Positions 17,310 through 57,426 of a stretch of DNA of 64,000 nucleotides are shown one piece after another. The notes under the pieces are model-generated. The model did no database searches and was not told the origin of the DNA. It saw only the letters and a list, made by a program, of their open reading frames with translations. Both the position numbers and the translations under genes were made by a program. The DNA lies in NCBI GenBank assembly GCA_003298465.1, contig QNGA01000009.1:62001-126000 (forward strand), read 5' to 3'. Each line of letters begins with the position of its first letter. Position 1 is the stretch's first letter. This DNA is from a halophilic archaeon. GTDB lineage: Archaea > Halobacteriota > Halobacteria > Halobacteriales > Haladaptataceae.

Positions 17310-19520
17310 TTAGTAGGTGCTAAGATCGTATTCTGTAGGTGGTTGAGTATTGTGGAGATGTTTAACAAAATAATCCCATCGAGAACGGATGAAGTACGGA
17401 TGCTCGCCAAGCCAGTGATGTTCATTAGGTATTATGAGCATGTCGAAATCTTTGTTGGCATCCATAAGTGCATTCGCGAAACGGAGTGTAGCGGCCGGAT
17501 GGACGTTCTGATCTAGTTCTCCATGGACTAAGAGCAATTCACCTTCAAGCTGGTCAGCAATAGTGATGTTTGATTGCTCACGGTAGTGTTCCTCAACAGG
17601 ATAGCCCATCCACATTTCGTTCCAAGAAGCTTTGTCTAACCGGTGGTCATGATTTCCGCTTGAGGATACAGCAACGTCGTAGAAATCTGGGTGTTGGAGA
17701 AGTGCTCGAGCAGAATCATAGCCTCCGGCAGAGTGACCATAGATTCCCACCTGTGAACAATCAATATAGGAGTATTCCTCGGCTAATTGTTGAAGCGCGG
17801 CTTTATGATCCTCTACTCCAGTTCGACTCAAGTTTTTATATGAGTAGTCGCGAAATGCTTTCGAACGACGACCAGTTCCACGGCCATCAACCATGACAAC
17901 GATAAAGCCAAGTTCAGCAATTGATTGAGCACCAGATCGATATGCTTCGAACTTTTTTGGCACATGTTGGTCGTGTGGCCCTGTGTAGATGTGTTCTATT
18001 ACGGGGTAATCGTTTGAGGGATCGAAATTAGATGGGCGCCACATCACCCCATAGAGATCAGTCTCGTCATCAGCCGCAGTTACCTCAAACGACTTTGGGG
18101 ATACCCAGCCCGTATCACGAAGTTGGTCAATATTCGCACTCTCTAATTCACATATCTCGTCGCCGGTAGTGCTGTGTCGCAAGACGGTAACTGGAGGTGA
18201 GTCGACTCGCGAATAGGTATCAATAATATATTCACCAGACGGTGAGACAGTGATCGTATGATCAGCCGGTTCAGGTGTGAGAAGTGTAAGATCTGATCCG
18301 TCGAAGTTCACCCGATAGAGATGCCGGAGATAGGGATCGCAGTCTGGTTCTCGACCACTGGCAGTGAAATAGATTTGCCTTGTATCCTCGTCAACATGCT
18401 TGATATCCCGTACAACCCACTCACCAGTTGTGATAGCCTGTTTATTTTCTCCAGATTGAGCATCGATAAGATACAGATGATGCCACCCACTTTTTTCCGA
18501 GGACCAAATAATCTCATCACTGGTGTCGATAACTCGTGCATGTGACATCCGGGGATCGACTAATGTATCTGATTCATCCTCGATCACAGTCCGAGATTCG
18601 CCCGTTCGTGAATCGATCTTGAAGAACGTTGCAGTGTCAAAGCCGCGAGACCGACGAACATAATGGAGACAGTCGCTATCGCCATACCAGTTAAATTGCG
18701 GTCCATCCCCAAAGTAGAGAAGCGGGATGGGATCAATATCCAGTTCAACTTTTGTTCGCCTTTCAATGTCGAAAACAATGGGTTCTGCGACGGGTAGACC
18801 CTTCTCTCCAGGAAGTGGATAATCATAGAGAAAGTGCCTCGGTCGTAATTGATCGTCAGGTGAAGATTGTATAAGGGCAAGCTGATTAGCAGAACGTCGA
18901 TCTAACCGAAAAGTCGCCAGTTGTGTCGAGTCGGGGGACCAGCTAACTTCAACTGATTGGTCGAGGTCTTGTTTTCCTTCCTCTACCATATCGACGGGGG
19001 AAGGATAGGATGTTGCGTAGGGATACTGTTTTTCACCGTTTGATGTTAGTTGAATCACTTCGTGATTGCTTGTATCGCGTACATAGAGATCGTGATCTTC
19101 AACGAACGCTATCCATTGTCCGTCAGGAGATATTCCCGGTGGCTCCTCCGTGACAGAGATTGGTCTGCAGTCATATGTAGACAAGTTACACTCGTACGTC
19201 GTCTCTTGAATACGGAACTGAATGGCTGTCTTATTATTGGCATATTCGATCTTGTCGAACGGTAGATCCCATTTATCCTGCGCCGCATTCATCTCACTTG
19301 ATAGCGCATTAGCGAGTCGTTCGTGATCGAATGCATATGAGGAGGTGTTCGTGTCTGGGTCAACTTGGATGAATTCTTTGCCGTTATGACGCTCACGTCG
19401 ATACCAGAATTGATCAGTGTCATTGATCCAGTGCACCGTAATATCGTCATTTAGGACGTTGTGTTTGATATTCTGGGGAAGGAATTGTTCAGCCCGCTCA
19501 TAATCTTCAGAGGATACCAT
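17310..19520 (-). CDS. S9 family peptidase (dipeptidyl-peptidase IV / prolyl oligopeptidase type)
   Basis: A 736-residue serine peptidase of clan SC. The N-terminal ~470 residues form a DPP-IV-type beta-propeller (GISPDGQWIAFVEDHDLYVR; VEVSWSPDSTQLATFRLDRR; SGEYIIDTYSRVDSPP). The catalytic domain carries the nucleophile in GIYGHSAGGY (Ser about 597), Asp in HGELDQNV (about 670) and His in PNEHHW (about 701-702). No signal peptide is seen, so it should act in the cytoplasm on imported peptides, releasing Xaa-Pro or cutting after Pro. Together with the glycine cleavage operon and the two peptide importers this suits breakdown of proline-rich peptides. Exact specificity (DPP-IV or acylaminoacyl) cannot be told from sequence alone. 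Confidence 0.85.
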   Translation of the reverse strand: MVSSEDYERAEQFLPQNIKHNVLNDDITVHWINDTDQFWYRRERHNGKEFIQVDPDTNTSSYAFDHERLANALSSEMNAAQDKWDLPFDKIEYANNKTAIQFRIQETTYECNLSTYDCRPISVTEEPPGISPDGQWIAFVEDHDLYVRDTSNHEVIQLTSNGEKQYPYATSYPSPVDMVEEGKQDLDQSVEVSWSPDSTQLATFRLDRRSANQLALIQSSPDDQLRPRHFLYDYPLPGEKGLPVAEPIVFDIERRTKVELDIDPIPLLYFGDGPQFNWYGDSDCLHYVRRSRGFDTATFFKIDSRTGESRTVIEDESDTLVDPRMSHARVIDTSDEIIWSSEKSGWHHLYLIDAQSGENKQAITTGEWVVRDIKHVDEDTRQIYFTASGREPDCDPYLRHLYRVNFDGSDLTLLTPEPADHTITVSPSGEYIIDTYSRVDSPPVTVLRHSTTGDEICELESANIDQLRDTGWVSPKSFEVTAADDETDLYGVMWRPSNFDPSNDYPVIEHIYTGPHDQHVPKKFEAYRSGAQSIAELGFIVVMVDGRGTGRRSKAFRDYSYKNLSRTGVEDHKAALQQLAEEYSYIDCSQVGIYGHSAGGYDSARALLQHPDFYDVAVSSSGNHDHRLDKASWNEMWMGYPVEEHYREQSNITIADQLEGELLLVHGELDQNVHPAATLRFANALMDANKDFDMLIIPNEHHWLGEHPYFIRSRWDYFVKHLHNTQPPTEYDLSTY

Positions 19521-20022
19521 CAGTGATCTCCAGTTGGGACGAGTCCGTCATAGGCCTGTACCGAGCGATTCGCAACTATTGAGAAGGATTGAAGCTGGTT
19601 TAGGTTCATGGCTGGGAAGCAATGGTGAAGTGGAATCTCCATAGCAATCGATATTAGCTGCGAAATATTAAGTATTGGCCAATTCCCAACTTGCGCGAGC
19701 AGAGAGAAAACCTAAAGATTTGAGTTTGACAGACAACCCCATACATAACGGATAGTTGTCTTATTTCTCAAGCTGTAGTTTACTACTCAACGCAACCGGC
19801 AAAAGTATACTACTATTGTCCTTCTTTGGATTACTATCTAATACTATAATTAAATTTATGCGAAAGTATAAGTAGAAGCGTGGAAACTCCGCCATTAGTA
19901 GAGCGATACAGCCAGTCCAATATGCCCGCTAGCAATTTAATTGATCAACATAAAACCATGAATAGGAGCGGAAGAGAACGCAGAGTGGCAGTGACCTATG
20001 TTACGTTTACTCCTTCGAAATT
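19521..20022. other. intergenic stretch, AT-rich
   Basis: Divergent region between the S9 peptidase and the small HTH gene. It is strongly AT-rich from 19780 to 19880 (TATA-like tracts), with no frame or clear palindrome identified. It probably holds the promoters of both genes. Confidence 0.4.
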
Positions 20023-20420: not shown

Positions 20421-21848
20421 TTAGTTATCTAGCTGATGCCAGGAGAGTCGTGGGTTTCGAGCAGCCTTTGTCTGGTTAATTCGGTATGAAGAGGTTCGGC
20501 CAGGCGCTTGTTTGAGTGTCTCTGGTTTTTCGCTATCGACTGCGTTGAACGCAGCTGCTAACTGCTCAAGTGTTTGTTTACTCTCTGACTCGGTTGGCTC
20601 AGTCATGAGCGCTTCAGAGACAGTTTCTGGCCATTTTGTTGTTGGGGGGTGGACCCCGTAATCTAGCATTCTCTTTGCAAAGTCAGCTGCATCCTTATCA
20701 CCTGCACTTGCGACGAACTCGTGATGGAATGGCTGGTACGGAATGTCAAGATCAAGTTGAGAGGCAAGGTAGTTGGCGTTGAGGACTGCTTTAGCACTAG
20801 TATCCCGAAGGCCGGCATCACCCAGTCGGTTGATATACGCATACGCTTTCAATAGAACCAGCCAGTTCCCCATCACACCGTGAACCTTGCCGATAGAATC
20901 GTCAGGTTCGAATAATTCAAAGTTATCATCTGTTTTTCGGACTTGCGGTGACGGAAGGAATTCTGCTAAATATTGCTTTACACCAATTGGGCCTGCACCG
21001 GGGCCTCCTCCGCCATGGGGGGTCGCGAACGTCTTGTGCACATTGTAATGCATAATATCGAATCCCATATCGCCAGGCCGAGCACGGCCCAGCAGTGCAT
21101 TCAAATTAGCACCGTCGTAGTAGAGAAGCCCACCTGCATCATGGACAACCTTCGCGATCTCCTCAATTTTGCGTTCAAACAACCCAAGTGTATTCGGATT
21201 AGTAAGCATGAGAGCAGCTGTGGACTCTCCAACAGCAGACGACAGCGCATCAAGATCAACACGCCCGTCTGAATTCGCTGGCAATTCAACAACATTATAG
21301 CCAGCCAATGCAGCGCTTGCGAAGTTAGTTCCGTGAGCACTAGATGGAATAATAACTTCATCCCGTTGTGCTGCTTCATCATTTGTACTGTGATATGCTT
21401 TCGCGATAAGAATTCCAGTAAATTCACCAGCAGCACCAGCAGGCGGCTGCAATGTCACTGCATCCATTCCACCAATCTGGCAAAGTGAATCTTGGAGACT
21501 GTGATAGACCTCTAGAGTTCCTTGGATTGTTTCGCTGTTTCGATCCGGATGGACTGCTGCTGTTGGTAGCGAAGCGATGTCTTCGGTAAATTTGGGATTA
21601 TACTTCATCGTGCAGGACCCGAGCGGATACGGACCACTGTCGATGCCATAATTCATCTGCGAGAGCCGTGTGTAATGCCGAGCAAGCTCTGGTTCCGATA
21701 CGTCAGGGAGTTCCAGTGATTCTCTGGTAAGATCCTCTGGAAGGTCAGTTTCGTCGATAGTGACTTCTTCAAGTCCCTTCTCTGAAAGCAATGGTTCATA
21801 CCCATCTGTTGCCTGTTCGTCCCACACTGCCTGGTTGTAAAATTGCAT
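20421..21848 (-). CDS. gcvPB: glycine dehydrogenase (decarboxylating) subunit 2
   Basis: P-protein beta half of the glycine cleavage system, 475 residues. It decarboxylates glycine on pyridoxal phosphate and hands the aminomethyl group to lipoyl GcvH. The PLP lysine sits in HYNVHKTFATPHGGGGPGAG (Lys about 272). Other family blocks are YPLGSCTMKYNPK, LQPPAGAAGEFTG and SAHGTNFASA. Its ATG shares a base with the stop of gcvPA, so the two subunits are coupled. It is the last gene of the gcvT-gcvH-gcvPA-gcvPB operon. Length and motifs look intact. Confidence 0.95.
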   Translation of the reverse strand: MQFYNQAVWDEQATDGYEPLLSEKGLEEVTIDETDLPEDLTRESLELPDVSEPELARHYTRLSQMNYGIDSGPYPLGSCTMKYNPKFTEDIASLPTAAVHPDRNSETIQGTLEVYHSLQDSLCQIGGMDAVTLQPPAGAAGEFTGILIAKAYHSTNDEAAQRDEVIIPSSAHGTNFASAALAGYNVVELPANSDGRVDLDALSSAVGESTAALMLTNPNTLGLFERKIEEIAKVVHDAGGLLYYDGANLNALLGRARPGDMGFDIMHYNVHKTFATPHGGGGPGAGPIGVKQYLAEFLPSPQVRKTDDNFELFEPDDSIGKVHGVMGNWLVLLKAYAYINRLGDAGLRDTSAKAVLNANYLASQLDLDIPYQPFHHEFVASAGDKDAADFAKRMLDYGVHPPTTKWPETVSEALMTEPTESESKQTLEQLAAAFNAVDSEKPETLKQAPGRTSSYRINQTKAARNPRLSWHQLDN

Positions 21849-23224
21849 TATTTGAGGGCCTCCTGAATCGACTGGATTAATTCCTCTACTTGATTTTCAT
21901 TCGTTTCATCAACACAAATTTGGATTTCATCAGTATTGAGTGCATGGACAGCAAAGCCCATTTCTAGCAATTCATCAGCAACTTCTCGAGCATCTGGTTC
22001 AATACGCGCTTTGAATTCCCGGAAATGATAGCAATCATGCACTGGTGCTGAAATACCATCAATAGCATCGAGAGCCTGTGCTACATTCTCAGGTAACTGA
22101 TGACATTTCTTGGCAAGAGAAATGAGGCCAGACGGTCCGAGCGAGGCAGCGTGAATAGCTGTTCGAAGAGCGACCCACGCTTGGTTTGTACAAATATTAC
22201 TGGTGGCTCGTTCACGACGGATGTGTTGCTCCCGCGTCTGGAGTGTTAATGTAAATGCACGTGATCCATGAGCATCTTCTGACGCTCCGACCAATCGTCC
22301 TGGAACCTGCCGAAGGTAGTTTTCACGGCAGGCAAAGATTCCCAGGCCCATTCCATACGCGGGGGGGAGTCCAAGAACGCTAGCATCACCGACAACAATG
22401 TCAGCACCGACACTCGCTGGCGATTGAAGCAAAGAGAGAGCGACAAGGTCAGAGCCAAGACAGAATAGTGCCTCATGCTTCTTAGTGAGTTCCCCAATCT
22501 CATTGAGCTGTTCTTCGATTACACCTTCGGGAGTTGGGTTCTCAATGTGAACCATCACAACGTCGTCAGCAAGTTCTTGGCTGAGCCCCTTTGAAGTCGC
22601 CAGACCATTATCTGTTCGGAATTCATCAACAGTTAGATCCGTGCCGGCGACATAGTTTTCAAGAACGGCTCGTCGTTCCTTACGGAGGTAATCAGGTACC
22701 AAGACGCGTGAACCGTCCACTTGACGAGCACGAGCAGCCAAGGTCGCTGCTTCTCCTAGTGCTGTTGCCGCATCATACATTGAGCAGTTTGCGACTTTCA
22801 AGCCAGTGAGTTCAACAAGCAATGACTGGTATTCGAAGAGGGCCTGAAGAAATCCTTGCGTCACTTCGGGTTGATACTGGGTATAGGAGGTGATGAATTC
22901 AGACCGGAGCGAAAGATGGTCAACAATTGAGGGGATATAATGGGAATAATGACCTCGGCCAAGGAATTCAGTGAGATTATTGTTTTGGTCTAAAGTATGA
23001 GTGAGTTGTTGCGTTACCTGCTGTTCTGGTGTCTTTTTGAGATCAGTCGTATTGTCAAAGCGGATTGATTCAGGAATGTCGAAAAGGCTCTCGATAGACT
23101 CAGCGCCAACTGAGTTCAACATTGCCTGAACTTCTAATTCTGTATGTGGCGTGAATGGGCTCCCATGACGTATGTTTTCTAGATTTTCTGTCCTATCTTC
23201 TCGTTGATCAGGATTTTCAGTCAT
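21848..23224 (-). CDS. gcvPA: glycine dehydrogenase (decarboxylating) subunit 1
   Basis: P-protein alpha half, 458 residues, forming the P-protein with GcvPB. Family blocks seen are GSPFTPHTELEVQAML near residue 20-35, FLGRGHYSHYIPSIVDHL, TSYTQYQPEVTQGFLQALFE, SMYDAATALGEAA and ERATSNICTNQAWVALRTAI. It starts 6 bp after gcvH ends. The first ~18 residues are a charged extension. There is no sign of damage. It works on glycine, which in this setting may come from Gly-rich (collagen-like) peptides. Confidence 0.95.
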   Translation of the reverse strand: MTENPDQREDRTENLENIRHGSPFTPHTELEVQAMLNSVGAESIESLFDIPESIRFDNTTDLKKTPEQQVTQQLTHTLDQNNNLTEFLGRGHYSHYIPSIVDHLSLRSEFITSYTQYQPEVTQGFLQALFEYQSLLVELTGLKVANCSMYDAATALGEAATLAARARQVDGSRVLVPDYLRKERRAVLENYVAGTDLTVDEFRTDNGLATSKGLSQELADDVVMVHIENPTPEGVIEEQLNEIGELTKKHEALFCLGSDLVALSLLQSPASVGADIVVGDASVLGLPPAYGMGLGIFACRENYLRQVPGRLVGASEDAHGSRAFTLTLQTREQHIRRERATSNICTNQAWVALRTAIHAASLGPSGLISLAKKCHQLPENVAQALDAIDGISAPVHDCYHFREFKARIEPDAREVADELLEMGFAVHALNTDEIQICVDETNENQVEELIQSIQEALK

Positions 23225-23230: not shown

Positions 23231-23605
23231 TCAAATCTGATCGCGGTATTCTGCCGGACTGTATAGGCAATCCAAGTCGTCGTCTGTTTCGATCTCAACC
23301 ATCCATCCGCGCTGAAATGGTTCATTATTGACAAGCTCCGGCTTATCCAGAGCTTCATCGTTGATAGCTATGACTTCACCTGAGACCGGAGCATAGATGT
23401 CTGAGACGGCTTTAATACTCTCGATAACACCGATTTCATCACCTTCATCGACTGTATCACCTTCTGCTGGAAGTTCTAAGAAGACTATATCGCCTAGTTC
23501 GTCTTGAGCAAAATCAGTGATTCCAATACGCACGACACCATCTCTGTCTTCAATCCATTCGTGCGACTCTGTGTACTGTAGTCCATCAGGTACTTTGAAT
23601 TTCAT
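23231..23605 (-). CDS. gcvH: glycine cleavage system H protein
   Basis: Lipoyl carrier of the glycine cleavage system, 124 residues, the usual length. The lipoylation site is the Lys in [20 protein letters not shown] (Lys about 65). TESHEWIE near residue 12-19 and [14 protein letters not shown] are family hallmarks. It starts 15 bp after gcvT. It shuttles the aminomethyl group from GcvP to GcvT and needs a lipoylating enzyme and dihydrolipoamide dehydrogenase encoded elsewhere. Confidence 0.96.
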
Positions 23606-24721: not shown

Positions 24722-24743
24722 GTCATACCAATTCTGATGGTTG

Positions 24744-24751
24744 AATAAATA
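24744..24751 (-). promoter_or_regulatory. TATA box of the gcv operon
   Basis: On the minus strand TATTTATT is centred about 26 nt before the GTG at 24721. It decides between the two possible gcvT starts. Confidence 0.6.
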
Positions 24752-24792
24752 GCTTTCTCTCAAGTGGGATTATTAGACTAGCAGGATCAGGT

Positions 24793-25074
24793 TCAAACCT
24801 CGCTACCACGATCAACGGAGTAGCCCACGTTGCGGATTGAGTTTACGATCAAGTCGGATGGATCGAGTCCACTGGACTTAATATAGAAGTGTAGATAGGC
24901 TTCTCCAATGTTGAGTTCGTCACTGGATCATTCGTGACTTACCTCACGGATGTTTGCTCCATGGTTAGTGATTATTTTCTTGATTTGGTTCCTTTGTCCG
25001 GGTTTGTCTATAATCTGGACTTGGAGTCGAATATGCTGCTCTAAGGTGATCAATCCATGGATGAGGAGTGCTTG
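24793..25074 (-). pseudogene. ACT-domain C-terminal stump of threonine dehydratase
   Basis: Read on the minus strand the frame gives LLIHGLITLEQHIRLQVQII, then DKPGQRNQIKKIITNHGANI and, after an in-frame TGA (HE-stop-SSDELNIGEAYLHFYI), KSSGLDPSDLIVNSIRNVGY. This is the regulatory ACT domain at the end of haloarchaeal threonine ammonia-lyase (ilvA/tdcB type). The catalytic domain is missing and a stop closes the frame upstream at about 25075. So only the tail of a former threonine or serine deaminase gene remains, next to the gcv operon. Confidence 0.65.
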
Positions 25075-25295
25075 GAAGTTTTATATTTAATTATTAGTTA
25101 AAAGTTTTGGAATAACATACTATCGATTTAGAGGTAGTCGCTTCGTACTGGGAAATTGATATTGCACTGATGTCTTCAATTACCTAGTTAGTCCGTTCAA
25201 CCATCTACGGCAAGCTTTCGGTAATCTCGGCATCTGAAATGCTATAAAATCAAAAAGAGCCGATATTTCGCTGCTGCTCTGTCGCTAACGGTCTA

Positions 25296-28930: not shown

Positions 28931-28932
28931 CG

Positions 28933-38974: not shown

Positions 38975-38975
38975 G

Positions 38976-43499: not shown

Positions 43500-43521
43500 G
43501 ATACACGATGACAAACCCAGA

Positions 43522-43530: not shown

Positions 43531-43551
43531 ACTTATGATCACTATTTGATA

Positions 43552-44979: not shown

Positions 44980-44997
44980 CCAAATCCATGTGTAGCA

Positions 44998-49773: not shown

Positions 49774-49911
49774 CACGTCATATTTCGCACTAACTCATCA
49801 TAAAGATGCCGAACTCAGATACGACCTCTCGTGTAATAGTGTGATCGAGATCATCGGATCCCGCTAGCAACGGCCTCAAGACGACAAAAAGATCCGTACT
49901 GTTAGACGTGT

Positions 49912-51408
49912 TTAGTCCTGGGTGACTGTTGCTTCTGGTTGCTCAACCTCACTCGGTTCCCTCCGTGGCCAAATTATCGACGCTAGGATTGCGGCCAAGA
50001 AACCAATAGGAGGCGCTACAAGTCGAACCGTTACAATGGAAGTGAATCCCATCGTGATCCATAAGATCGTGACCGTTGGACCGACGAGGAAAGCCGCAAT
50101 AACTCCTGCTCTGGAGAGATTGTCTTGCCAGAAGAATAGGAGTGTAAATACTGGCCCGAATGCCGAAAATAGTCCTGTCGCGGAATAGCTTACGAGTGTA
50201 TAGACGAGGTCTTTAACTGAAAGCGCGATGCCTAAGCCGACGAAGCCGACAACTAACGTTGCGACACGAGAAATTCGAAGGCTCGTTTTTTCGCTGAACT
50301 TGCGCTCCTTGGCAACCACCTTGTTGTAGACGTCCTGAGCAGCTGCAGAACTGGCGACTACCAGTTGGGAGTCTGCAGTGGACATCATTGCAGCTAATGC
50401 GCCAGCGAGCATGATGCCCCCGACGAGACCAGGCGTATGTTCGAGAACCATGAATGGTAAAACCATTTCACGGTCAGCTTGGATCGTCGCTGGTGTACCA
50501 TGGATAGTTCGAGTGAGAAGCCCAAGAAGGACTGCTCCGATGGCAGTCAAGATTCCCCAAGCCGTAGCAACAATAACCGCTGTTTTTCGTTCTTCATTGC
50601 TCGGGAGCGCCATCATCCGTACGTCCAGATGGGGGTAGCCACCTAAGTCGGCAAAGATCCAGCTCAAGTTTGCCCCGAGGAGTAGCAAGGCTGCCCCGCC
50701 GGATTTTCCGCCAAACCATGAGGCCCTTCCTCCTCCTGCCGCTTCCAGACTCCCCATGATTGAGAGTGACGGGTTCGAGACTACATCTACTAGCAGAATT
50801 GCTGGTAAAACAATCAGGGTGAACACCATCAAGATGGCTTGGAGTGCGTCAGTCCAAACCACTGCGAGAAATCCTCCGGCAAGGGAGTAGACAATGATGA
50901 GAAGTGCGACGATGAGCAGGCCGATGATCGGTGATAATCCAAAAATTTGCTCGAGGATTTTACCTCCGGCAAGGAATTGGGAGCCGACGTATCCCATATA
51001 GAATACGAATGTAACTAGTGCAGGGAGTAATCGGAGGATGGGGGAGTTGCCTGGGAGTTTTTCGGCGATCAGGCCTGTAGGCGTTATTGCTCCTGTTTCT
51101 TTTTGTCCTTCCATGAATGGTCTGGAGTAGATCACCCATTGGATGATTGCACCGCCGGCTGCGCCAACTAAAACCCAGACGGAGGATAATCCAGTAGCCC
51201 ATGCAAGTCCTGGCATTCCTAAGAGGAGCCAGCCGGACATCCCGGAACTGCGTTCGGAAAGTGCTAGTGCCCAACCTGGTAGCTGGCCTCCTCCAAGGAA
51301 GAAGTCTTCCTCTGAACCTACATTTTTTGAGCCCCAATAACCGATTGCAGCAACTATCAGTAAGTATCCAACTAACCCGATGACGGTATTTGTGCCTGCT
51401 TGTACCAT
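49912..51408 (-). CDS. putP: sodium:solute symporter, PutP (Na+/proline) type
   Basis: Membrane symporter of the SSS family, 498 residues from the Met at 51408. About 13 transmembrane segments are seen. Core motifs are EEDFFLGGGQLPGWALALSE, SSGMSGWLLLGMPG (sodium site helix), YSLAGGFLAVVWTDALQAIL and AMMSTADSQLVVASSAAAQD. The last is typical of the PutP/PanF group. A longer frame to 51447 contains the probable TATA (51446-51452), so the later Met is chosen. It stands between P5CDH and an aminotransferase and should import proline or a hydroxyproline with sodium. Confidence 0.88.
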   Translation of the reverse strand: MVQAGTNTVIGLVGYLLIVAAIGYWGSKNVGSEEDFFLGGGQLPGWALALSERSSGMSGWLLLGMPGLAWATGLSSVWVLVGAAGGAIIQWVIYSRPFMEGQKETGAITPTGLIAEKLPGNSPILRLLPALVTFVFYMGYVGSQFLAGGKILEQIFGLSPIIGLLIVALLIIVYSLAGGFLAVVWTDALQAILMVFTLIVLPAILLVDVVSNPSLSIMGSLEAAGGGRASWFGGKSGGAALLLLGANLSWIFADLGGYPHLDVRMMALPSNEERKTAVIVATAWGILTAIGAVLLGLLTRTIHGTPATIQADREMVLPFMVLEHTPGLVGGIMLAGALAAMMSTADSQLVVASSAAAQDVYNKVVAKERKFSEKTSLRISRVATLVVGFVGLGIALSVKDLVYTLVSYSATGLFSAFGPVFTLLFFWQDNLSRAGVIAAFLVGPTVTILWITMGFTSIVTVRLVAPPIGFLAAILASIIWPRREPSEVEQPEATVTQD

Positions 51409-51542
51409 GCTTACATTGCTCCGGCCAGCAATTCTGGTTGTTCCCATATATAGTTAATGATGGATGGATCTACGAGGCGCAGATAGTATAAGGGATGAAG
51501 AGCTTAAATTTATATTATCCGTCAAGATAAACGGCTAGGGCC

Positions 51543-52706
51543 CTAAAGCCAAGCTTCAATTCGATCGAAAGCCTCATCGATTCGGCCGAGAGAATTCGAG
51601 TAAGCAATCCGGAAACGACCCCTACCGGAATCACCAAACACCGACCCAGGAACAAGCGCAACACCTTCATCTTGCAATAGCGACCAAACAAACTCGCGCT
51701 CATCAGCTATCCCCTTGGGAGTAGTCGGGAACGCGTAGAATGCCCCAGTAGGAGTGGGACAAGACATCCCAGGAATCGCCTCAATCCGCTCCATAACCCT
51801 ATCACGTCGACGAGCAAATGCATCCACCATAGAAGTATGCAGATCACCTTCGAGAGCTCGAATCCCAGCGTATTGCGAGATCGAGGGAGCACATGTGGTT
51901 GTGTATTGGCGAACCCGAATAATCGGATCTATCAGTTCGGACGGTGCTGCGAGATATCCAAGTCGCCAGCCAGTCATTGAATAGGCTTTCGAAAAGCCGT
52001 TAATCGTAATTGTTCGCGGGAAAAGGTCATCTTCGGCCGCAGGACTCAGATGCTGATGAGAGTCATACCGAATTTTCTCGTAAATTTCGTCGGACATGAG
52101 TAGGAGATCGTTATCTACTACAAAATCCCGAATTTCATCGAGACTTTCCTGATCAATAACTCCCCCTGTTGGATTATGGGGACTGTTCAGGATCAATAGC
52201 TTAGTTCTATCCGAGACATTTTCCTTGATTGATGACATATCAGGGGTGAACCCATCCTCAGGGTCTAACTCATAGGTAATCGGGGTCCCTCCAGCCATTC
52301 TAATACTCGAGGGATACGTCCAGCAGGGATCAGGGGTCAAAACCTCATCACCCTCTTCAATGAGAGCGAGCAAGGTCACAAGGACGGCCTCTGTTGCACC
52401 TGTTGTTACGACAATCTCACTCTCAGGGTCATAATCAATATCATTCTCGTCTAAAAACTTATTTGAAAGGGCTGTTCGAAGAGGTTCAATTCCATAATTG
52501 GAGGTGTAGTGAACGTGGCCATCCGAAAGTGCTTGTCTACCTGCTTCTTTGATCTCGTCCGGAGTATCGAAATCAGGTCGACCAATTTCGAGGTGGACAA
52601 CATCAGTTCCGGTTTCTTCAATCCGGTCGCATTCCTCAAATATTTCTCGGATCCCTGAAAATGGAATCTGATTCATTCGGCTAGCAGCGTGGTCAATTTG
52701 GACCAT
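51543..52706 (-). CDS. pyridoxal-phosphate aminotransferase, class I (aspartate aminotransferase-like)
   Basis: Aminotransferase of 387 residues. The PLP Lys lies in TINGFSKAYSMTGWRLGYLA. Other marks are HYTSNYGIEPLR, TTGATEAVLVTLLALIEEGD, NSPHNPTGGVID, LLMSDEIYEKIRYD and the substrate Arg in GRGRFRIAYSNSLGRI. It belongs to the broad AspC/alanine type found in archaea. In this neighbourhood it could convert glutamate or 4-hydroxyglutamate to the 2-oxo acid, or move amino groups to glyoxylate; none of this is shown by sequence. It has its own promoter. Confidence 0.92.
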   Translation of the reverse strand: MVQIDHAASRMNQIPFSGIREIFEECDRIEETGTDVVHLEIGRPDFDTPDEIKEAGRQALSDGHVHYTSNYGIEPLRTALSNKFLDENDIDYDPESEIVVTTGATEAVLVTLLALIEEGDEVLTPDPCWTYPSSIRMAGGTPITYELDPEDGFTPDMSSIKENVSDRTKLLILNSPHNPTGGVIDQESLDEIRDFVVDNDLLLMSDEIYEKIRYDSHQHLSPAAEDDLFPRTITINGFSKAYSMTGWRLGYLAAPSELIDPIIRVRQYTTTCAPSISQYAGIRALEGDLHTSMVDAFARRRDRVMERIEAIPGMSCPTPTGAFYAFPTTPKGIADEREFVWSLLQDEGVALVPGSVFGDSGRGRFRIAYSNSLGRIDEAFDRIEAWL

Positions 52707-52961: not shown

Positions 52962-54119
52962 TCAATTTATTACCGTTCCTTCTTCGAGATGGATTCCTCG
53001 GTCAAATCGATCTGCAGTTAATTGAGAGATGTCGAGGAGGGAAACCTCATCTTCATCAATGAGTTCAGCTACAATTTTACCCGTTGCAGGAGCCTGCATA
53101 AACCCGTGTCCAGAGAAACCAACTGCATTCACTAATCCAGGGAGTGATTCCTCGATAATGGGATGGTGATCCGGGGTCACAGCATATAGCCCAGCCCAGC
53201 CTCGTTTGATACGAGATTCTGGTCCAAAGTAGTCCGCACACTTCGACGCTTCCTCGATGGTTTCTGCCGCCCAGTCTAAATCCATTTTTTCTTTAAAAGC
53301 ATCGGGATCCTCTGCTGGATCTACTTCGGAAAAATGACCGCCAACAACAGCCGCTCCTTCGCGTTCAGGGCGGAAGTGAACACCTCGATCGAGATCAATC
53401 GTGAACGGGACTGAATCATCGACTGGTGTTTCTGGATCGACCACCATGAGTTGACGACGGCGAGGAGATATGGGGAGATCAAGCCCTACCATCTCTCCAA
53501 CTTTACTGGCCCATGCCCCAGTAGCATTTACTACGTAATCCGCGTCGAACTCTGAAGAGTCCGTTTGTACTCCAGTTACTCGTCGACTCGAATTTTCCTG
53601 TATCACATCCGTGACTTCGACATTAGTTCTGATATCCACTCCCGCTTCATTTGCGGCAATAGAAAACCCTTGCAAGCCAAGATGAGGATCAGCAAAGCCA
53701 TCAGTCGGACAGTACGTCGCTCCCTTAAACATGTCTGACTTCAATTTCGGGCACAGTTGCTCGGCCTCATCGGGTGAGAGGAATTTGCTATCGACACCAA
53801 GCTGGTTTTGTTGGCGAACGTTCTCTTGGAAACGCTCAACTGTTGATTCCGACTGGGCTAAAAAGAGATAGCCTGGTCTCCGATAGTCGATGTTGGTATC
53901 AAATTCCTCGTCGAATGTCTCCCAGACTTTGATGCTCTCTTGAGAGAGGGCCGCACTTACTGGTGAAGAAAATTGAGCTCGGATACCTCCATTTGCTCGA
54001 TCAGTACTCCCCGAGCCAATTGTTGATTTCTCGAGCACCGTAACGTCGGTATTGCGTTGCTGAAGGTAGTACGCGGACGCTAAGCCTATAATCCCGCCAC
54101 CAATGACAATCACACGCAT
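52962..54119 (-). CDS. FAD-dependent oxidoreductase, DAO family (amino acid / sarcosine / hydroxyproline dehydrogenase-like)
   Basis: A 385-residue flavoprotein from the Met at 54119 (MRVIVIGGGIIGLASAYYLQ is the dinucleotide site; the longer frame to 54167 crosses the promoter). DAO-family features are the RANGGIRAQFSSPVSAALSQ substrate loop, VVNATGAWASKVGEMVGLDL, and the C-terminal FAD loop AVTPDHHPIIEESLPGLVNA with VGFSGHGFMQAPATGK. It resembles sarcosine oxidase beta, the PDH-beta (dye-linked proline dehydrogenase) subunit and D-hydroxyproline dehydrogenase. Sequence does not separate these. It is divergent from the 3-hydroxyproline dehydratase. It probably oxidises a cyclic or N-methyl amino acid and may pass electrons to EtfBA. 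Confidence 0.88.
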   Translation of the reverse strand: MRVIVIGGGIIGLASAYYLQQRNTDVTVLEKSTIGSGSTDRANGGIRAQFSSPVSAALSQESIKVWETFDEEFDTNIDYRRPGYLFLAQSESTVERFQENVRQQNQLGVDSKFLSPDEAEQLCPKLKSDMFKGATYCPTDGFADPHLGLQGFSIAANEAGVDIRTNVEVTDVIQENSSRRVTGVQTDSSEFDADYVVNATGAWASKVGEMVGLDLPISPRRRQLMVVDPETPVDDSVPFTIDLDRGVHFRPEREGAAVVGGHFSEVDPAEDPDAFKEKMDLDWAAETIEEASKCADYFGPESRIKRGWAGLYAVTPDHHPIIEESLPGLVNAVGFSGHGFMQAPATGKIVAELIDEDEVSLLDISQLTADRFDRGIHLEEGTVIN

Positions 54120-54141
54120 AAGGAGTAGGTTACAATTCGAT

Positions 54142-54150
54142 ACTAATAAT
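54142..54150 (-). promoter_or_regulatory. TATA box of the DAO-type oxidoreductase gene
   Basis: On the minus strand ATTATTAGT lies 23-31 nt before the ATG at 54119. Confidence 0.4.
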
Positions 54151-54154
54151 TTGT

Positions 54155-54189
54155 CCGGTTCAAGCAACCCAGTAGCCGGTCAAGGTTGC
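54155..54189. promoter_or_regulatory. repeat cluster in the divergent hydroxyproline promoter
   Basis: Two near-direct repeats, CCGGTTCAAG (54155-54164) and CCGGTCAAGG (54176-54185), overlap an inverted pair GCAACC (54164-54169) and GGTTGC (54184-54189). They lie between the divergent DAO-type gene and the dehydratase gene and may be an operator. Confidence 0.3.
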
Positions 54190-54271: not shown

Positions 54272-55312
54272 ATGAAAAGCTCCAATTACACAGACAGCCC
54301 ACCAGAACGCTATAAGAAGATCGAAACAATTGACGCTCACACTGGCGGTGAGCCACTTAGGGTCATTGTCGATGGATTACCACCATTGGATGGCTCTACT
54401 GTATTGGCTAAGCGACGGTACTTTGAGCGAGAACTCGATGAGTATCGGAGAGCACTCATGTGGGAGCCCCGTGGACACGCGGATATGTATGGGGCTGTGC
54501 TTACCGAGCCCAATGATGAAAATGCCGACTTTGGGGTGGTATTCATGCATAATGAGGGGTACAGCACGATGTGTGGTCATGGTATTATCGCTCTGGCGAA
54601 AATAATTCACGAATCTGAATGTCTTGGTATCGGATCGCTCGACGATGAGATCACGATAGATACTCCAGCTGGCCGTGTTGTAGCAGAGGTTGAACAAAAT
54701 CATCACGGAATAGTAGAATCAGTTGAGTTCACGAATGTCCCTTCTTTCGTCTACGCTCGAAGTCAGAAAGTATCTGTTCCTTCCTGGGGAACGATCGAAG
54801 TCGATATTGCATTTGGCGGGGCATTCTACGCGTATTTCGATGCTGAACAAATCAACTTAGAATTGACTCCAGGAAACTTCGAAACACTGGTTGATGTCGG
54901 GCGGTCAGTAAAGACAGCAGTTGCAAACTCAGTCGAGTCCAAACACCCGTACGAAGACGATCTCGGGTTTCTTTACGGAACGATCATTACAAGCGATCCC
55001 CATACCGACAGTGCTGATAGTCGGAATGTCTGTGTCTTTGCTGACGGAGAGGTTGATCGATGTCCTACTGGCACCGGAGTAAGTGGTCGCGTTGCTCTCC
55101 AGGCAGAAAGGGATGCACTTTCGCCAAACGAATTATTCACAGTAGAAAGTATAGTGGGTTCAAAGTTTACTGGATCATATGAAAAAGCGCTCGAATTTGG
55201 GGGATATCAGGCTGTCCAGCCTAAAGTCAGTGGATCAGCATATATTATGGGTCGCCATGAGTTTTTGATTGATCCAGCTGACCCATTTGGGGAAGGGTTC
55301 TTTCTCCGGTAG
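54272..55312 (+). CDS. trans-3-hydroxy-L-proline dehydratase (proline racemase family)
   Basis: A 346-residue member of the proline racemase family. The first catalytic Cys is kept (Cys101 in GYSTMCGHG). The second, normally in PCGTG, is Thr266: the site reads VDRCPTGTGVSGR. A Cys-to-Thr change here is the known mark of trans-3-hydroxyproline dehydratase (L3HYPDH), which removes water from trans-3-hydroxyproline to give pyrroline-2-carboxylate, rather than racemising. Other L3HYPDH-like stretches are YRRALMWEPRGHADMYG, MHNEGYS and the end DPADPFGEGFFLR. The reductase that turns the product into proline is not obvious here. It is divergent from the DAO-type oxidoreductase. Confidence 0.88.
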   Translation: MKSSNYTDSPPERYKKIETIDAHTGGEPLRVIVDGLPPLDGSTVLAKRRYFERELDEYRRALMWEPRGHADMYGAVLTEPNDENADFGVVFMHNEGYSTMCGHGIIALAKIIHESECLGIGSLDDEITIDTPAGRVVAEVEQNHHGIVESVEFTNVPSFVYARSQKVSVPSWGTIEVDIAFGGAFYAYFDAEQINLELTPGNFETLVDVGRSVKTAVANSVESKHPYEDDLGFLYGTIITSDPHTDSADSRNVCVFADGEVDRCPTGTGVSGRVALQAERDALSPNELFTVESIVGSKFTGSYEKALEFGGYQAVQPKVSGSAYIMGRHEFLIDPADPFGEGFFLR

Positions 55313-55417: not shown

Positions 55418-56182
55418 ATGGGACAGGCACAGAAAGGGCATCTCAAAACAACCGAAAACACGATCCGCATAGTTGAGGCGCTCAGGGAATTAGACGGTGC
55501 AGGGGTAACTGAGCTCTCCAACCATCTCTCGATGTCAAAAAGCACAGTTCACGATCATCTTACGACGCTCCGACAGCATGACTACGTAACAAAAGATGAA
55601 GGTACGTATGTAGTTGGTCTCGGCTTCTTCGAAGTCGGTGAGTATGCAAGAAAGCGGAGAAAGATCTATGAGGTGGCTAGACCAGAAGTACAGGCATTAG
55701 CAGAGGAAACAGGTGAGCTCGCAAATCTGATGGTTGAAGAGCATGGCCGAGGTGTCTATCTCTATCGAGCACAGGGCGAGAAGGCAGTTACCCTTGATAC
55801 TCATACTGGAAAGCGCCGCTATCTCCATAATACAGCACTCGGTAAAGCAATCCTCGCACACCTCCCTGAGAAACGAGTCATCGAAATCTTGGATAACCAT
55901 GGGTTGCCTGCAGCCACTGAAAATACGATTACTGACCGCGAAGAACTCCACGATGAGCTGGAGAAAATACGGAGCTCCGGCATCGCATACTGTGGCCAAG
56001 AGAGAGTAGAAGGGCTACAGTGCGTCGCGGCCCCCGTCCTTGGAAAAGATCAGGAAGTATTAGGGGCAATTAGTGTAGCTGCTCCTACGACAAGAATGCA
56101 GGGAGAACGTTTTGAAGAGAAAATCCCAGAACTAGTTCTCCAAGCAGCAAATGTTGTAGAAATCAACGTAACTTATGGCTAG
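55418..56182 (+). CDS. IclR-family transcription regulator 1
   Basis: A 254-residue regulator. An N-terminal winged helix (about 8-70: NTIRIVEALRELDGAGVTEL, then LSMSKSTVHDHLTTLRQHDY) is followed by the IclR effector domain (VGEYARKRRKIYEVARPEVQ; LHNTALGKAILAHLPEKRVI; GIAYCGQERVEGLQCVAAPV; AISVAAPTTRMQGERFEEKI). Such proteins bind small acids or amino acid derivatives. It lies between the 3-hydroxyproline dehydratase and an Xaa-Pro peptidase on the same strand, so it probably controls the proline block. A palindrome at its promoter suggests autoregulation. Confidence 0.92.
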   Translation: MGQAQKGHLKTTENTIRIVEALRELDGAGVTELSNHLSMSKSTVHDHLTTLRQHDYVTKDEGTYVVGLGFFEVGEYARKRRKIYEVARPEVQALAEETGELANLMVEEHGRGVYLYRAQGEKAVTLDTHTGKRRYLHNTALGKAILAHLPEKRVIEILDNHGLPAATENTITDREELHDELEKIRSSGIAYCGQERVEGLQCVAAPVLGKDQEVLGAISVAAPTTRMQGERFEEKIPELVLQAANVVEINVTYG

Positions 56183-56210: not shown

Positions 56211-56304
56211 TATCCAGCATAGGCATACAACGGGCATATCTTTATTTCTCTCACTGAATCTGAGACACGGAAATAGCGACATTCAAGGGAGAGGTAGATA
56301 ATAT

Positions 56305-57426
56305 ATGAGTATGGAAGGCCGTTTCCAAAAGAGAATGGAACAGTGCCAGGAGCTACTAGCTGAAAATGATGCTGATGCAGTGATCCTATCAATGAGCTCA
56401 AATTTATATTATCTGACTGGCTTTACCGACGAACCGATGGAGCGACATTTACTGTGCTTTGTTCCCCAAGAGAAGGATCCAGTGTTTATAGCTCCAGAGA
56501 TGTATGAAAGCCAAATCAAAAGCGCATCATGGGTTGAGGATATTCGATCCTGGACAGACGAGACCGGCCCTGGCGGAGTGTTAGAAGACACAATTGCTGA
56601 TCTAGATCTTCATGAGAGTCAGATATTGATTGATGATTCAATGCAAGGTCGATTTGTTCTTGATCTCCAGAAACGCATTAATAATGGATCCTTCGCGTGC
56701 GCGGAGGAAGTTATTTCGCCCCTCCGCATGGAAAAGGATTCCGAAGAGCTACGTCAAATCGAGCAAGCATCAAAGATTGCCGACGAAACCAGTGAGTATA
56801 TCCGGTCACTTGGGTCAGAGGCCATTGGACTAACCGAGCGAGAGTTGGCGAAACGAATTAGACAAGATCTCCTTGCGGAGAATGGTGAGGGACTCAGCTT
56901 CGGAACCATAGTCGGGTCAGGTCCAAATGGAGCACACCCTCATCATCGAGTGAGCGATCGGACAATCAGTATGGGTGATCCAGTCGTTCTAGATTTCGGG
57001 GTTCTCATTAATGGGTATCCGAGTGATCAAACACGGACGGTGGTTTTCGGGGGAGATCCCCCAAACGGGTTTATTGAAGCTTATAAGATAGTCAAAGCTG
57101 CGCTGGACGCTGGTGTTGACGCTGTCAAGCCGGGGGTTACAGCCAGTCAGGTAGACCGTGCTGTACGAAGTGTGTTTGAAGCGCATGACTATGAGGAGAA
57201 GTTCATTCATCGGACGGGGCATGGAGTTGGCTTGGATATTCATGAACCACCATATATCGTGAGCGGGAATGAGACAGTACTCAAGCCAGGGATGGTATTT
57301 AGTATTGAACCAGGAGCCTATCTTGAAGGGCAATTTGGTGTACGCCTTGAAGATCTCGTTGTTGTAACGAAGGATGGTTGTCGTCAATTAAATGAATCAT
57401 CCCACACTTGGCGTGCACTTGATTAG
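56305..57426 (+). CDS. Xaa-Pro aminopeptidase/dipeptidase (M24 family), copy 3
   Basis: A 373-residue cytoplasmic peptidase. The N-domain contains SSNLYYLTGFTDEPMERHLL. The catalytic domain keeps every ligand: Asp230 (VVLDFGVLING), Asp241 (GYPSDQTRTVVF), His306 (HRTGHGVGLDIHE), Glu335 (FSIEPGAYL) and Glu349 ([14 protein letters not shown]). HPHHR at about 211-215 supports a Xaa-Pro specificity. It probably shares control with the IclR gene before it, with 120 bp between them. It is the second intact Xaa-Pro peptidase of the block. Confidence 0.93.
   Translation: MSMEGRFQKRMEQCQELLAENDADAVILSMSSNLYYLTGFTDEPMERHLLCFVPQEKDPVFIAPEMYESQIKSASWVEDIRSWTDETGPGGVLEDTIADLDLHESQILIDDSMQGRFVLDLQKRINNGSFACAEEVISPLRMEKDSEELRQIEQASKIADETSEYIRSLGSEAIGLTERELAKRIRQDLLAENGEGLSFGTIVGSGPNGAHPHHRVSDRTISMGDPVVLDFGVLINGYPSDQTRTVVFGGDPPNGFIEAYKIVKAALDAGVDAVKPGVTASQVDRAVRSVFEAHDYEEKFIHRTGHGVGLDIHEPPYIVSGNETVLKPGMVFSIEPGAYLEGQFGVRLEDLVVVTKDGCRQLNESSHTWRALD

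Follow-up and report, generated by a model that had tools for sequence, protein, structure and literature searches.

Described systems for collagen and hydroxyproline breakdown

The closest known system is the collagen-utilisation cluster of Colwellia BB5 which, in the accessible text of its report, combines extracellular proteolysis and uptake with proline/hydroxyproline dipeptidases and proline/hydroxyproline catabolism (PMC7883544). The earlier note on this DNA knew of no haloarchaeal collagen locus, and we likewise found no haloarchaeal collagen/hydroxyproline-utilisation cluster of this kind in print; the concept itself, however, is already known from Colwellia. As outlined in the available parts of two further reports, bacterial 4-hydroxyproline (4-Hyp) catabolism uses an epimerase, a D-amino-acid-type dehydrogenase, a deaminase and an alpha-ketoglutarate semialdehyde (KGSA) dehydrogenase (PMC4364671, PMC4113996). 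Among archaea, Thermococcus litoralis has a cluster linked to the metabolism of trans-3-hydroxyproline (trans-3-Hyp) as well as L-proline; its L-proline dehydrogenase genes include PH1364-like ones, and the same source mentions that haloarchaeal Cys-Cys genes are often clustered with a bacterial-type proline dehydrogenase (PMC4364671). Vertebrates degrade 4-Hyp by the PRODH2-P5CDH-AspAT-HOGA1 pathway; HOGA1 was formerly called DHDPSL (PMC8779045, accessible text).

Extent, setting and conservation of the island

A 40-kb gene island occupies positions 17310-57426 of the window (the whole 64,000-nucleotide stretch of haloarchaeal DNA analysed), and every gene family that the earlier note had named there was found with Pfam or NCBIfam profiles. 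We read it, with a probability of about 0.48, as a catabolic island, carried on an accessory replicon, that handles peptides rich in proline and hydroxyproline (e.g. gelatin fragments) and has a vertebrate-like 4-Hyp branch. The island adjoins an Orc1/Cdc6 replication initiator gene (58371-59573, forward strand), which recurs, at 77% identity, only in the closest relative found, a 113,850-bp contig matching Haladaptatus cibarius (G125). A pair of 29-nt inverted repeats resembling origin boxes lies at 58067-58269 with a spacing of 145 nt (144 nt in the G125 counterpart). Judged by these features, the region beside the island looks like a replication origin.

Among 391 genomes compared, 13 encode the DAO-family dehydrogenase of the island (DAO) at 63% identity or more, and 11 of the 13 also have the aldolase and the cupin in its neighbourhood. 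The island core is thus present in at least 11 of the 391 genomes (in G251 it is split over two short contigs, and in G210 the aldolase lies approximately 25 kb away), and partial clusters occur in G063 and G020. This conserved core consists of the DAO, a P5C-dehydrogenase-type aldehyde dehydrogenase (Aldedh), an aminotransferase, a DeoC/LacD aldolase, an SDR-like protein, a cupin and an IclR-family regulator, often with EtfBA, PutP and a Cys-Thr trans-3-hydroxyproline dehydratase (T3HypD). In the clusters of the 11 relatives, the DAO, aldolase and cupin are present in all, the SDR-like protein in 10, the aminotransferase in nine, T3HypD in eight, the regulator (at 72% identity or more) in seven and EtfBA in four. 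The aldolase, aminotransferase, SDR-like protein and cupin, although among the most conserved genes of the island, had been overlooked in the earlier note; with them the reading shifts from proline plus 3-Hyp towards a probable 4-Hyp branch. The idea of a single pathway is partly supported, in that synteny shows a conserved gene unit, but the core catabolic module had largely been missed.

Outside the core, conservation is narrower. Importer 2 and the peptidases M24a and M24b accompany the core in four of the 11 clusters, importer 1 and the S9 peptidase in two (Haladaptatus G125 and, with importer 1 on a plasmid, Natrononativus), and glycine cleavage and the S8 subtilase in G125 only, where the whole island is found in the same order with few genes inserted. 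The earlier note had allowed that the genes might be neighbours in this genome only, but the synteny search finds the island or its core in relatives. That the genes adjoin by chance, or by recent shared descent alone, without a common pathway, is hardly credible: glycine cleavage, the S8 subtilase and Orc are indeed shared only with the closest relative, but other genomes, named Halostella and Natrononativus plasmids among them, have the core genes in rearranged order, and for the core this synteny already largely refutes it.

Proposed genes for peptide release and uptake

The island begins with an S9 prolyl-oligopeptidase/DPP-IV-like peptidase (17310-19520, reverse strand; Pfam DPPIV_N and Peptidase_S9, nucleophile motif GHSAGG), which is 72% identical in G125 and 59-70% in Natrononativus; no export signal was seen when its N-terminus was inspected by eye. 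The S8 subtilase (25296-26423, reverse strand; profile match and catalytic motifs, 83% in G125) carries a twin-arginine-type signal, RRSLLK. Profile matches also identify two peptide ABC importers on the reverse strand: importer 1 (OppF, D, C, B and A; 26535-32971) and importer 2 (OppF, D and C, 36819-39890; OppB and OppA, 40862-43532). Both OppA proteins have Tat-lipoprotein-like N-termini (read, like RRSLLK, by eye and with no predictor). A PutP-type sodium:solute symporter is encoded at 49912-51447 (reverse strand; profile match).

Three proteins match the M24 profile. Judged by eye against what we take to be the M24 ligand motifs, M24a (34444-35631, reverse strand) and M24c (56305-57426, forward strand) keep their metal ligands, in agreement with the two intact Xaa-Pro peptidases reported earlier. 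M24b (43608-44825, forward strand), of the prolidase/creatinase fold, has lost several: the D, D, H, E, E set is incomplete, with ITGATANVDGYISELERT and GGYRHSDT replacing ligand motifs, and its relatives share this loss. As in the Colwellia-type cluster, prolidase-type peptidases adjoin proline/hydroxyproline catabolic genes.

Specificity for collagen, as first proposed, is unsupported: proline- and hydroxyproline-rich proteins have sources other than collagen, and a Pfam scan of 46 window proteins revealed no M9 collagenase. Collagen is nevertheless a plausible substrate, because H. cibarius, which originates from salt-fermented shellfish, can hydrolyse gelatin, as stated in the accessible part of its description (PMC4571117).

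Proline, 3-hydroxyproline and glycine genes

A proline dehydrogenase of the Thermus/PutA type (ProDH; profile match) is annotated at 35891-36886 on the reverse strand. Its true start is probably 36727 rather than 36886, since a relative's protein has 278 amino acids and the longer reading frame overlaps OppF of importer 2. ProDH matches lie outside the cluster in all 13 DAO-positive genomes, and two of the 11 relatives have one within the retrieved cluster stretch (in G243 a match lies approximately 14 kb from the cluster), which argues that plain proline can be handled without the core.

The proline-racemase-superfamily protein at 54272-55312 (forward strand) has the Cys-Thr pair (MCGHG, CPTGTG) that, according to the available text, marks trans-3-hydroxyproline dehydratases (PMC4113996), and the 3-Hyp dehydratase named earlier is supported by it. 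The T3HypD model ranks first of six, its 376 bits falling short of the cut-off (540), which makes this a type call and not a certified equivalog. All 23 strong haloarchaeal matches are Cys-Thr, and all seven weaker matches examined (of 10) are Cys-Cys. T3HypD tracks the DAO (9/13 versus 14/378 genomes, Fisher p 9.5e-10, the genomes not being independent), but is absent from three of the 11 core clusters. Ornithine-cyclodeaminase (OCD)-family genes lie adjacent to or one gene away from T3HypD in G130 and G001, and an MR/MLE gene is adjacent in G251.

Glycine cleavage genes, all on the reverse strand and identified by profile, encode GcvPB (20421-21848), GcvPA (21848-23224), GcvH (23231-23605; lipoyl-lysine motif ESIKA, by eye) and GcvT (23621-24763). 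The system had been called whole: P1, P2, H and T are present, but no L-protein is among the scanned island proteins. The L-protein is usually encoded at another locus. In G125 the island genes, GcvPB included, duplicate a second set located elsewhere in the genome, which favours a dedicated role.

Proposed oxidation and transamination enzymes

The DAO (52962-54167, reverse strand) is an FAD-dependent imino-acid dehydrogenase by family, and its closest solved chain is 1y56_B, followed by SoxB-type sarcosine oxidase beta chains (209 versus 127 bits). We take 1y56_B to be an L-proline dehydrogenase, and 1y56 is presumably PH1364. EtfB and EtfA are encoded at 44863-46739 (forward strand; profile matches), with the EtfB start probably near 45007.

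An alternative casts the core as a route for the breakdown of N-methylated or guanidino compounds (such as sarcosine, dimethylglycine or creatine), with M24b as a creatinase-like hydrolase, the DAO as a sarcosine dehydrogenase feeding the ETF, and glycine passing to glycine cleavage. The SoxB-type model does top the DAO model matches (168.5 bits, far below its cut-off of 529), 1y56_B was itself deposited as a sarcosine oxidase, and M24b, with its missing ligands, has creatinase 1chm among its matches. However, M24b is nearer to prolidases than to creatinase (154 versus 123 bits), the DAO prefers 1y56_B to the sarcosine oxidase beta chains, and the Aldedh, aminotransferase, aldolase, T3HypD and ProDH would have no role. 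We consider this alternative very unlikely.

The Aldedh (48169-49776, reverse strand; GQKC and ELGGK motifs) scores best as a GSA dehydrogenase (465 versus 398 bits, but below the 648-bit cut-off). This cluster type is single-copy in 10 of the 13 genomes and lies in or near the cluster in nine of those 10; with ProDH matches outside the cluster in all 13, this suggests that the substrate is not plain proline. G326 and G047 have a different aldehyde dehydrogenase in the cluster, and that of G326 scores best, below cut-off, as a dioxovalerate/alpha-ketoglutaric semialdehyde dehydrogenase. The class I aspartate/aromatic-type aminotransferase (51543-52706, reverse strand), the candidate 4-hydroxyglutamate transaminase, reaches 333 bits, short of the 550-bit cut-off; of the two solved chains closest to it, one carries the name aromatic aminotransferase. 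At the broad family level, the window therefore holds imino-acid dehydrogenase, P5CDH and aspartate aminotransferase types together. All three are found in nine of the 11 relatives (two with the other type of Aldedh, and Natrononativus with its Aldedh at 61.5 kb).

The DAO could also act at C2: related DAOs (58-61% identity) lie opposite OCD-family genes, a pairing that could indicate oxidation at C2 rather than C5. 4-Hyp would then yield pyrroline-4-hydroxy-2-carboxylate, the Schiff-base aldolase would serve as the deaminase, and the Aldedh would form 2-oxoglutarate. Routes of this type are known in bacteria (PMC4364671, PMC4113996, in the parts available), and G326 and G047 have the KGSA-like Aldedh in their clusters. 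Yet the clusters contain neither a Cys-Cys hydroxyproline epimerase nor a DapA-family deaminase of the bacterial HypE-HypO-HypD-HypH route (the sole racemase-family protein among the scanned window proteins is Cys-Thr, as are the copies of eight relatives), the window Aldedh favours the GSA model, and the aminotransferase is left without a role. We regard this route as improbable.

Cupin, SDR-like protein and regulator

The cupin (46773-47123) and the SDR-fold protein (47216-48007) are both encoded on the reverse strand, the former identified by profile. The YxxxK catalytic pair is missing from the SDR-like protein, in which LSNSVRM is found instead, and LSN(S/A)VRM is present in all 11 aligned rows. 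The SDR-like protein, the cupin and M24b have no step in the pathway proposed below. The IclR-family regulator (IclR1) is encoded at 55418-56182 (forward strand; profile match).

A cluster-linked aldolase

The DeoC/LacD class I aldolase (39941-40804, forward strand), our candidate 4-hydroxy-2-oxoglutarate (HOG) aldolase, is a cluster-linked paralogue of the shikimate-type ADH synthase. It scores 334 bits with TIGR01949 (cut-off 299.45) and keeps the Schiff-base lysine (K200, in KTGY). In a tree, the 14 cluster copies form one clade apart from 18 others (support 0.998); only three positions are group-specific, and the catalytic lysine and GG/GR motifs are unchanged. Ten of the 11 relatives have a second copy elsewhere, in eight of them no more than approximately 6 kb from a match to dehydroquinate synthase, while no cluster copy has such a neighbour, so in those eight the other copy is the probable shikimate-pathway enzyme. 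In G364 (the eleventh relative), G063 and G020, the cluster copy is the sole ADH-synthase-like gene above 35% identity; as dehydroquinate synthase is present, it may there serve aromatic synthesis also, or only. HOGA1 has a DapA-family fold, but the retrieved cluster stretches of the 13 genomes contain no match to this family (PF00701) and have the DeoC/LacD aldolase instead; DapA-family genes occur elsewhere in all 13.

These data bear on a simpler explanation, in which the island serves proline and trans-3-Hyp peptides only: the DAO and ProDH would be two proline dehydrogenases, the Aldedh would form glutamate, the aminotransferase would form 2-oxoglutarate, and the aldolase would be unrelated (e.g. 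aromatic amino-acid supply). ProDH, the P5CDH-type Aldedh, T3HypD and PutP are all in the island, and the aldolase score, its unaltered active site and the three genomes with a single copy are consistent with this. The presence of the aldolase, in its own clade, in all 11 clusters, the other copy in most relatives, and the distribution of ProDH argue against it, and we judge it unlikely.

Proposed pathway

Under the preferred reading of an island with a 4-Hyp branch, the secreted subtilase and other proteases would produce peptides, the two ABC importers would take these in, and PutP would take up free imino acids. The S9 and metal-bearing M24 peptidases would free glycine, proline and hydroxyprolines. 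Proline would pass to ProDH, and the Cys-Thr enzyme would turn trans-3-Hyp by dehydration into pyrroline-2-carboxylate, which a reductase encoded elsewhere would reduce to proline. Trans-4-Hyp would be oxidised by the DAO with electrons going to EtfBA, then converted by the P5CDH-type enzyme to 4-hydroxyglutamate, which would be transaminated. The resulting HOG would be cleaved by the DeoC/LacD aldolase; by analogy with the vertebrate pathway, a branch ending in pyruvate and glyoxylate is probable. The extra glycine cleavage system would dispose of glycine, and IclR1 is the likely regulator. From the gene families, synteny, aldolase clade, Cys-Thr pair and second glycine cleavage copy in Haladaptatus, we infer all substrates, the regulation, and the direction in which the 4-Hyp branch runs.

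More broadly, we tentatively suggest, at somewhat less than even odds, that haloarchaea degrade trans-4-Hyp much as vertebrates do, with 4-hydroxyglutamate and HOG as intermediates and an ADH-synthase paralogue recruited as the HOG aldolase, on plasmid-like replicons that also carry peptide importers and, in Haladaptatus and the window organism, glycine cleavage. If so, one step of 4-Hyp degradation uses an enzyme borrowed from amino-acid synthesis.

Comparison with known systems

As far as its accessible text extends, the Colwellia cluster has an M9 collagenase, a TonB receptor, an MFS transporter, a 4-hydroxyproline epimerase of the Cys-Cys type and the KGSA route (PMC7883544), whereas the island has the S8 subtilase, two ABC importers, the Cys-Thr 3-Hyp dehydratase, DAO with ETF, the aminotransferase, the DeoC/LacD aldolase and glycine cleavage. 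The T. litoralis cluster includes a Cys-Cys racemase/epimerase, and importers, a P5CDH-type Aldedh, an aldolase and glycine cleavage are not described in the available part of that report (PMC4364671). The cluster aldolase resembles archaeal ADH synthase (solved relative MJ0400, 2qjg) in score and catalytic lysine, but is set apart by its clade and by the ordinary copy that accompanies it in all relatives except G364. With respect to the vertebrate pathway, as given in the accessible text (PMC8779045), the conserved core has a candidate for each of the four reaction types, while the first and last enzymes differ in family: the DAO stands in place of PRODH2, and the DeoC/LacD aldolase in place of HOGA1.

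Gene content of the island

Profile searches of the window's proteins recovered every gene family named in the earlier note, which had interpreted positions 17310-57426 as an island for the use of collagen-like peptides, and placed all of them in this 40-kb stretch. The claim of two intact Xaa-Pro peptidases agrees with the retention of metal ligands in two of the three M24 proteins. The glycine cleavage system, described as whole, includes the P1, P2, H and T proteins, but no L-protein was seen in the island. Four genes are missing from the earlier account: a DeoC/LacD-type aldolase annotated as ADH synthase (39941-40804, forward strand) and, on the reverse strand, a cupin (46773-47123), an SDR-fold protein (47216-48007) and a class I aminotransferase (51543-52706).

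An Rfam search returned nothing above the gathering score, and a tRNA scan found 0 tRNAs. As for candidate sites for the regulator IclR1 (55418-56182), a simple scan for palindromes with perfect 6-nt arms found none common to the intergenic stretches. A 1.47-kb gap lies upstream of OppA1 (32972-34443) and contains no ORF of 90 amino acids; the equivalent position in a relative is also a gap, of 1.2 kb, and similarity between the two at the DNA level was not found. Between the subtilase (S8) and glycine cleavage genes, Haladaptatus encodes a PLP-dependent (PALP) protein with an ACT domain, of threonine/serine dehydratase type by eye (positions 9587-10813 of fetched locus L144 in H. cibarius). 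At the equivalent place in the window (24764-25295) there is just a 166-nt stretch with 69% identity, apparently a decayed remnant.

Conservation of the island in other genomes

The genome set comprised 391 genomes of the class to which Halostella pelagica belongs, drawn from a larger group, and neighbourhoods were mapped by BLAST of the window proteins onto the stretches around matches. The entire island, from DUF1152/Orc to the DPP-IV-like peptidase (S9), is found in unchanged order on a 113,850-bp contig of G125, matched to Haladaptatus cibarius, with 66-91% identity. The EamA and IclR2 genes of the window are absent from this copy, and additional genes are present between S8 and glycine cleavage and also before S9.

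An independent search with the FAD imino-acid dehydrogenase (DAO, 52962-54167) identified proteins of 63% identity or more in at least 13 of the 391 genomes among the matches listed. Both the aldolase and the cupin are near the DAO gene in 11 of these 13 genomes (hereafter the 11 relatives, not counting the window itself). In one relative, G251, the cluster is divided between two short contigs, and in another, G210, the aldolase is approximately 25 kb from the DAO neighbourhood. The two genomes excluded are G063, in which the M24 protein M24b adjoins DAO and the aldolase is on a different contig, and G149, in which the sole other cluster match in 20 kb is OppD (31%).

Among the 11 relatives, DAO, the aldolase and the cupin are present in 11, SDR in 10, the aminotransferase in nine and the 3-hydroxyproline (3-Hyp) dehydratase-type protein (T3HypD, 54272-55312) in eight. 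IclR1 (≥72% identity) is found in seven, PutP in six, EtfBA in four and proline dehydrogenase (ProDH) in two. Importer 2 (≥64% for B, D and F) occurs in four and importer 1 (≥49% for B, C, D and F) in two; of the M24 proteins, M24a (≥45%; window 34444) and M24b (≥70%) each occur in four and M24c (≥56%; window 56305) in two. S9 is present in two, and S8, glycine cleavage and Orc in one each. From these counts, the island has a nested structure: the catabolic core is the most widespread, peptide uptake forms a second layer found in four relatives, and only Haladaptatus adds S8 and glycine cleavage.

T3HypD-type proteins were found in 33 of the 391 genomes at an E value of 1e-60 or better. The 3-Hyp dehydratase co-occurs with the DAO group (9/13 genomes versus 14/378; Fisher p = 9.5e-10), a p value that serves as a guide only because related genomes are not independent. 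The earlier note had proposed a synteny search as a check: the genes are not neighbours in one genome only, and their order recurs in H. cibarius. A chance neighbourhood is rejected on this synteny, and the island is real, conserved and functionally coherent.

Three further genes were observed in these neighbourhoods. The DUF1152 protein (window 62196-63125) has a 74% match in H. cibarius and 51% matches in the neighbourhoods of G094 and G130; in G130 it sits between the aminotransferase and the aldehyde dehydrogenase, and is a possible partner not recognised before. A DUF1028 protein (L150:3337-4023, L149:16654-17343) is encoded between the importer 2 permease and M24b in Natrononativus and adjoins M24b in G243. 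The aldolase of G364 is followed by a gene for hydantoinase/5-oxoprolinase subunit A (L158:10867-13188), and importer genes lie a few kb beyond.

A proposed 4-hydroxyproline route

The DAO protein has 1y56_B as its nearest solved chain, followed by sarcosine oxidase beta chains. Enzymes of the DAO/sarcosine oxidase type oxidise secondary amines at the carbon without the carboxylate. The best model for the aldehyde dehydrogenase is GSA (P5C) dehydrogenase (465 bits, under the 648-bit cut-off), and P5C dehydrogenases are its nearest solved chains. For the aminotransferase, the closest solved chains are 1gd9 and 1dju, whose depositions name them aspartate and aromatic aminotransferase. DAO, the P5CDH-type aldehyde dehydrogenase, the aminotransferase and the Schiff-base aldolase would thus parallel the vertebrate breakdown of 4-hydroxyproline (4-Hyp), which has four steps: PRODH2, P5CDH, AspAT and HOGA1 (PMC8779045). 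Electrons from DAO may pass to EtfBA. In G130 a membrane Fe-S/CCG protein is encoded beside core genes (by Pfam), and G001 has a similar protein by eye.

If the pathway were for proline only, the aldolase would serve no purpose. A ProDH match is found outside the cluster in 13/13 genomes (in G050 the match to the chromosomal ProDH falls into two adjacent pieces). The window-type aldehyde dehydrogenase is single-copy in 10 of the 13, at or near the cluster in nine and on another contig in G063; it is within the fetched stretches of eight relatives and, in Natrononativus, just outside at 61.5 kb. No DapA-family gene was found in the fetched cluster stretches of the 13 genomes, and one is present elsewhere in all 13.

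Several observations count against the 4-Hyp scheme. The cluster stretches of G326 and G047 contain a different aldehyde dehydrogenase, 81-82% identical to one adjoining ProDH in G130; for the proteins of G130 and G326 the best model is alpha-ketoglutaric semialdehyde or dioxovalerate dehydrogenase, under cut-off. T3HypD is absent from 3/11 clusters, and the cupin, SDR and M24b fit no step. DAO proteins of a wider group (58-61% identity) are encoded opposite ornithine cyclodeaminase (OCD)-family genes in Haladaptatus caseinilyticus, H. salinisoli and Halomicrococcus gelatinilyticus, a pairing that could indicate oxidation at C2, contrary to the proposed scheme. The boldest part of our reading is that the cluster may degrade 4-Hyp much as vertebrates do, using an ADH synthase-type aldolase recruited to the route.

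The cluster aldolase

Among the matches listed, at least 384 of the 391 genomes have an aldolase copy at an E value of 1e-80 or better, and at least 11 have two or more: 10 relatives and G256, which is without the core. In a tree, 14 cluster copies split from 18 others with a local support of 0.998. The 14 are from the window, 10 relatives (Natrononativus gives two; the G210 copy was not included) and the partial clusters of G063 and G020, counted in the tree only. The other 18 were taken from the higher-scoring rows among the matches listed rather than at random; for 16 of them approximately 2.8 kb was fetched, so their non-cluster status was judged from the contig and from the DAO of the genome rather than from a gene map.

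A fuller search of 13 genomes identified a second aldolase (≥63%) outside the cluster in 10/11 relatives. Dehydroquinate synthase is the next shikimate enzyme, and a match to it is within approximately 6 kb of the non-cluster aldolase in eight of these 10 (G125, G001, G326, G047, G130, G251, G210 and G094); none was found within about 6 kb of the cluster copies. Against a change of function, just three positions (79, 86 and 264) are group-specific, and the lysine and GG/GR motifs of the cluster copies are the same as in MJ0400. In G364, G063 and G020, the cluster-type aldolase is the only copy above 35% identity and dehydroquinate synthase is present; here the cluster enzyme may serve aromatic synthesis as well, or be a replacement. 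The copy-number result (10/11 relatives yes, G364 no) cuts both ways for recruitment and does not alter its likelihood. Judged from sequence, the cluster aldolase is predicted not to be simply the ordinary ADH synthase.

3-Hydroxyproline and glycine

For T3HypD the 3-Hyp dehydratase model is best, with a score under cut-off, and the closest solved chain is 6r76, there called proline racemase. A Cys-Thr pair is present in 23/23 strong matches, and Cys-Cys in 7/7 of the weaker ones examined (of 10). The window protein has Cys-Thr, and hydroxyproline epimerase or proline racemase was rejected for it on that ground. The dehydratase product would need a reductase. Scanning of the window proteins revealed no OCD-family member; OCD genes occur somewhere in 13/13 cluster genomes, adjoining T3HypD in G130 and one gene off in G001. 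In G251, T3HypD adjoins an enolase-superfamily (MR/MLE) gene reminiscent of a cis-3-Hyp dehydratase, and an ORF in the corresponding position in G210 is alike by eye. GcvPB has two copies in H. cibarius (island and contig C1) and one in each of the other 12 genomes searched.

The SDR and M24b proteins

We considered the SDR as a candidate pyrroline-2-carboxylate reductase. Counting against it, YxxxK is absent (LSN(S/A)VRM replaces it in 11/11 aligned rows), the gene is present in clusters without T3HypD, and OCD genes are near T3HypD in G001 and G130. YxxxK is also absent, by eye in the printed alignment, from 2z1n, the best solved match. M24b (43608-44825) adjoins importer 2 and has an M24 fold with several metal ligands lost, a state that is conserved. 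Creatinase and ectoine hydrolase were considered as possible assignments, and prolidases score higher; M24b is perhaps a metal-free hydrolase.

Replicon and flanks

An Orc1/Cdc6 gene is approximately 1 kb from the island end, and the gap contains a 29-nt inverted repeat with a spacing of 145 nt (144 nt in H. cibarius) that looks like an origin. The cluster is plasmid-borne in Halostella pelagica and Natrononativus amylolyticus. The H. cibarius contig has a G+C content of 48-50%, and the value for the H. cibarius genome is 57.76% (PMC4571117). The island is likely an accessory-replicon trait. A megablast search of the right 24 kb of the window against plasmids gave no match. Along the window, G+C falls from 53.9% to 47.2% and then 44.6% (1-14000 compared with 17310-64000); the left flank encodes glutamate dehydrogenase (6547-7854) as well as ABC-2 export proteins and a BAT-type regulator.

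Collagen and comparison with known systems

The source of H. cibarius is salt-fermented shellfish, and the species can hydrolyse gelatin (PMC4571117), which fits collagen use. A scan of 46 window proteins detected no M9 collagenase, and on these data collagen cannot be told apart from other proline/hydroxyproline-rich proteins. If our reading is right, the island offers haloarchaea of salted foods and brines an almost complete route, open to testing, for the use of animal protein; hydroxyproline catabolism gains a new aldolase family; and there is an example of how a biosynthetic aldolase is taken into catabolism on an accessory replicon. With the core module, annotators also have a means to tell the cluster aldolase from ordinary ADH synthase.

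Among the open-licence papers listed (titles and abstract beginnings; subscription papers mostly outside this scope), we found no description of a haloarchaeal hydroxyproline or collagen-peptide cluster. The collagen-utilisation cluster of Colwellia includes an M9 collagenase, a 4-Hyp epimerase and the KGSA route (PMC7883544); it and the haloarchaeal island are systems of the same kind built from different parts.
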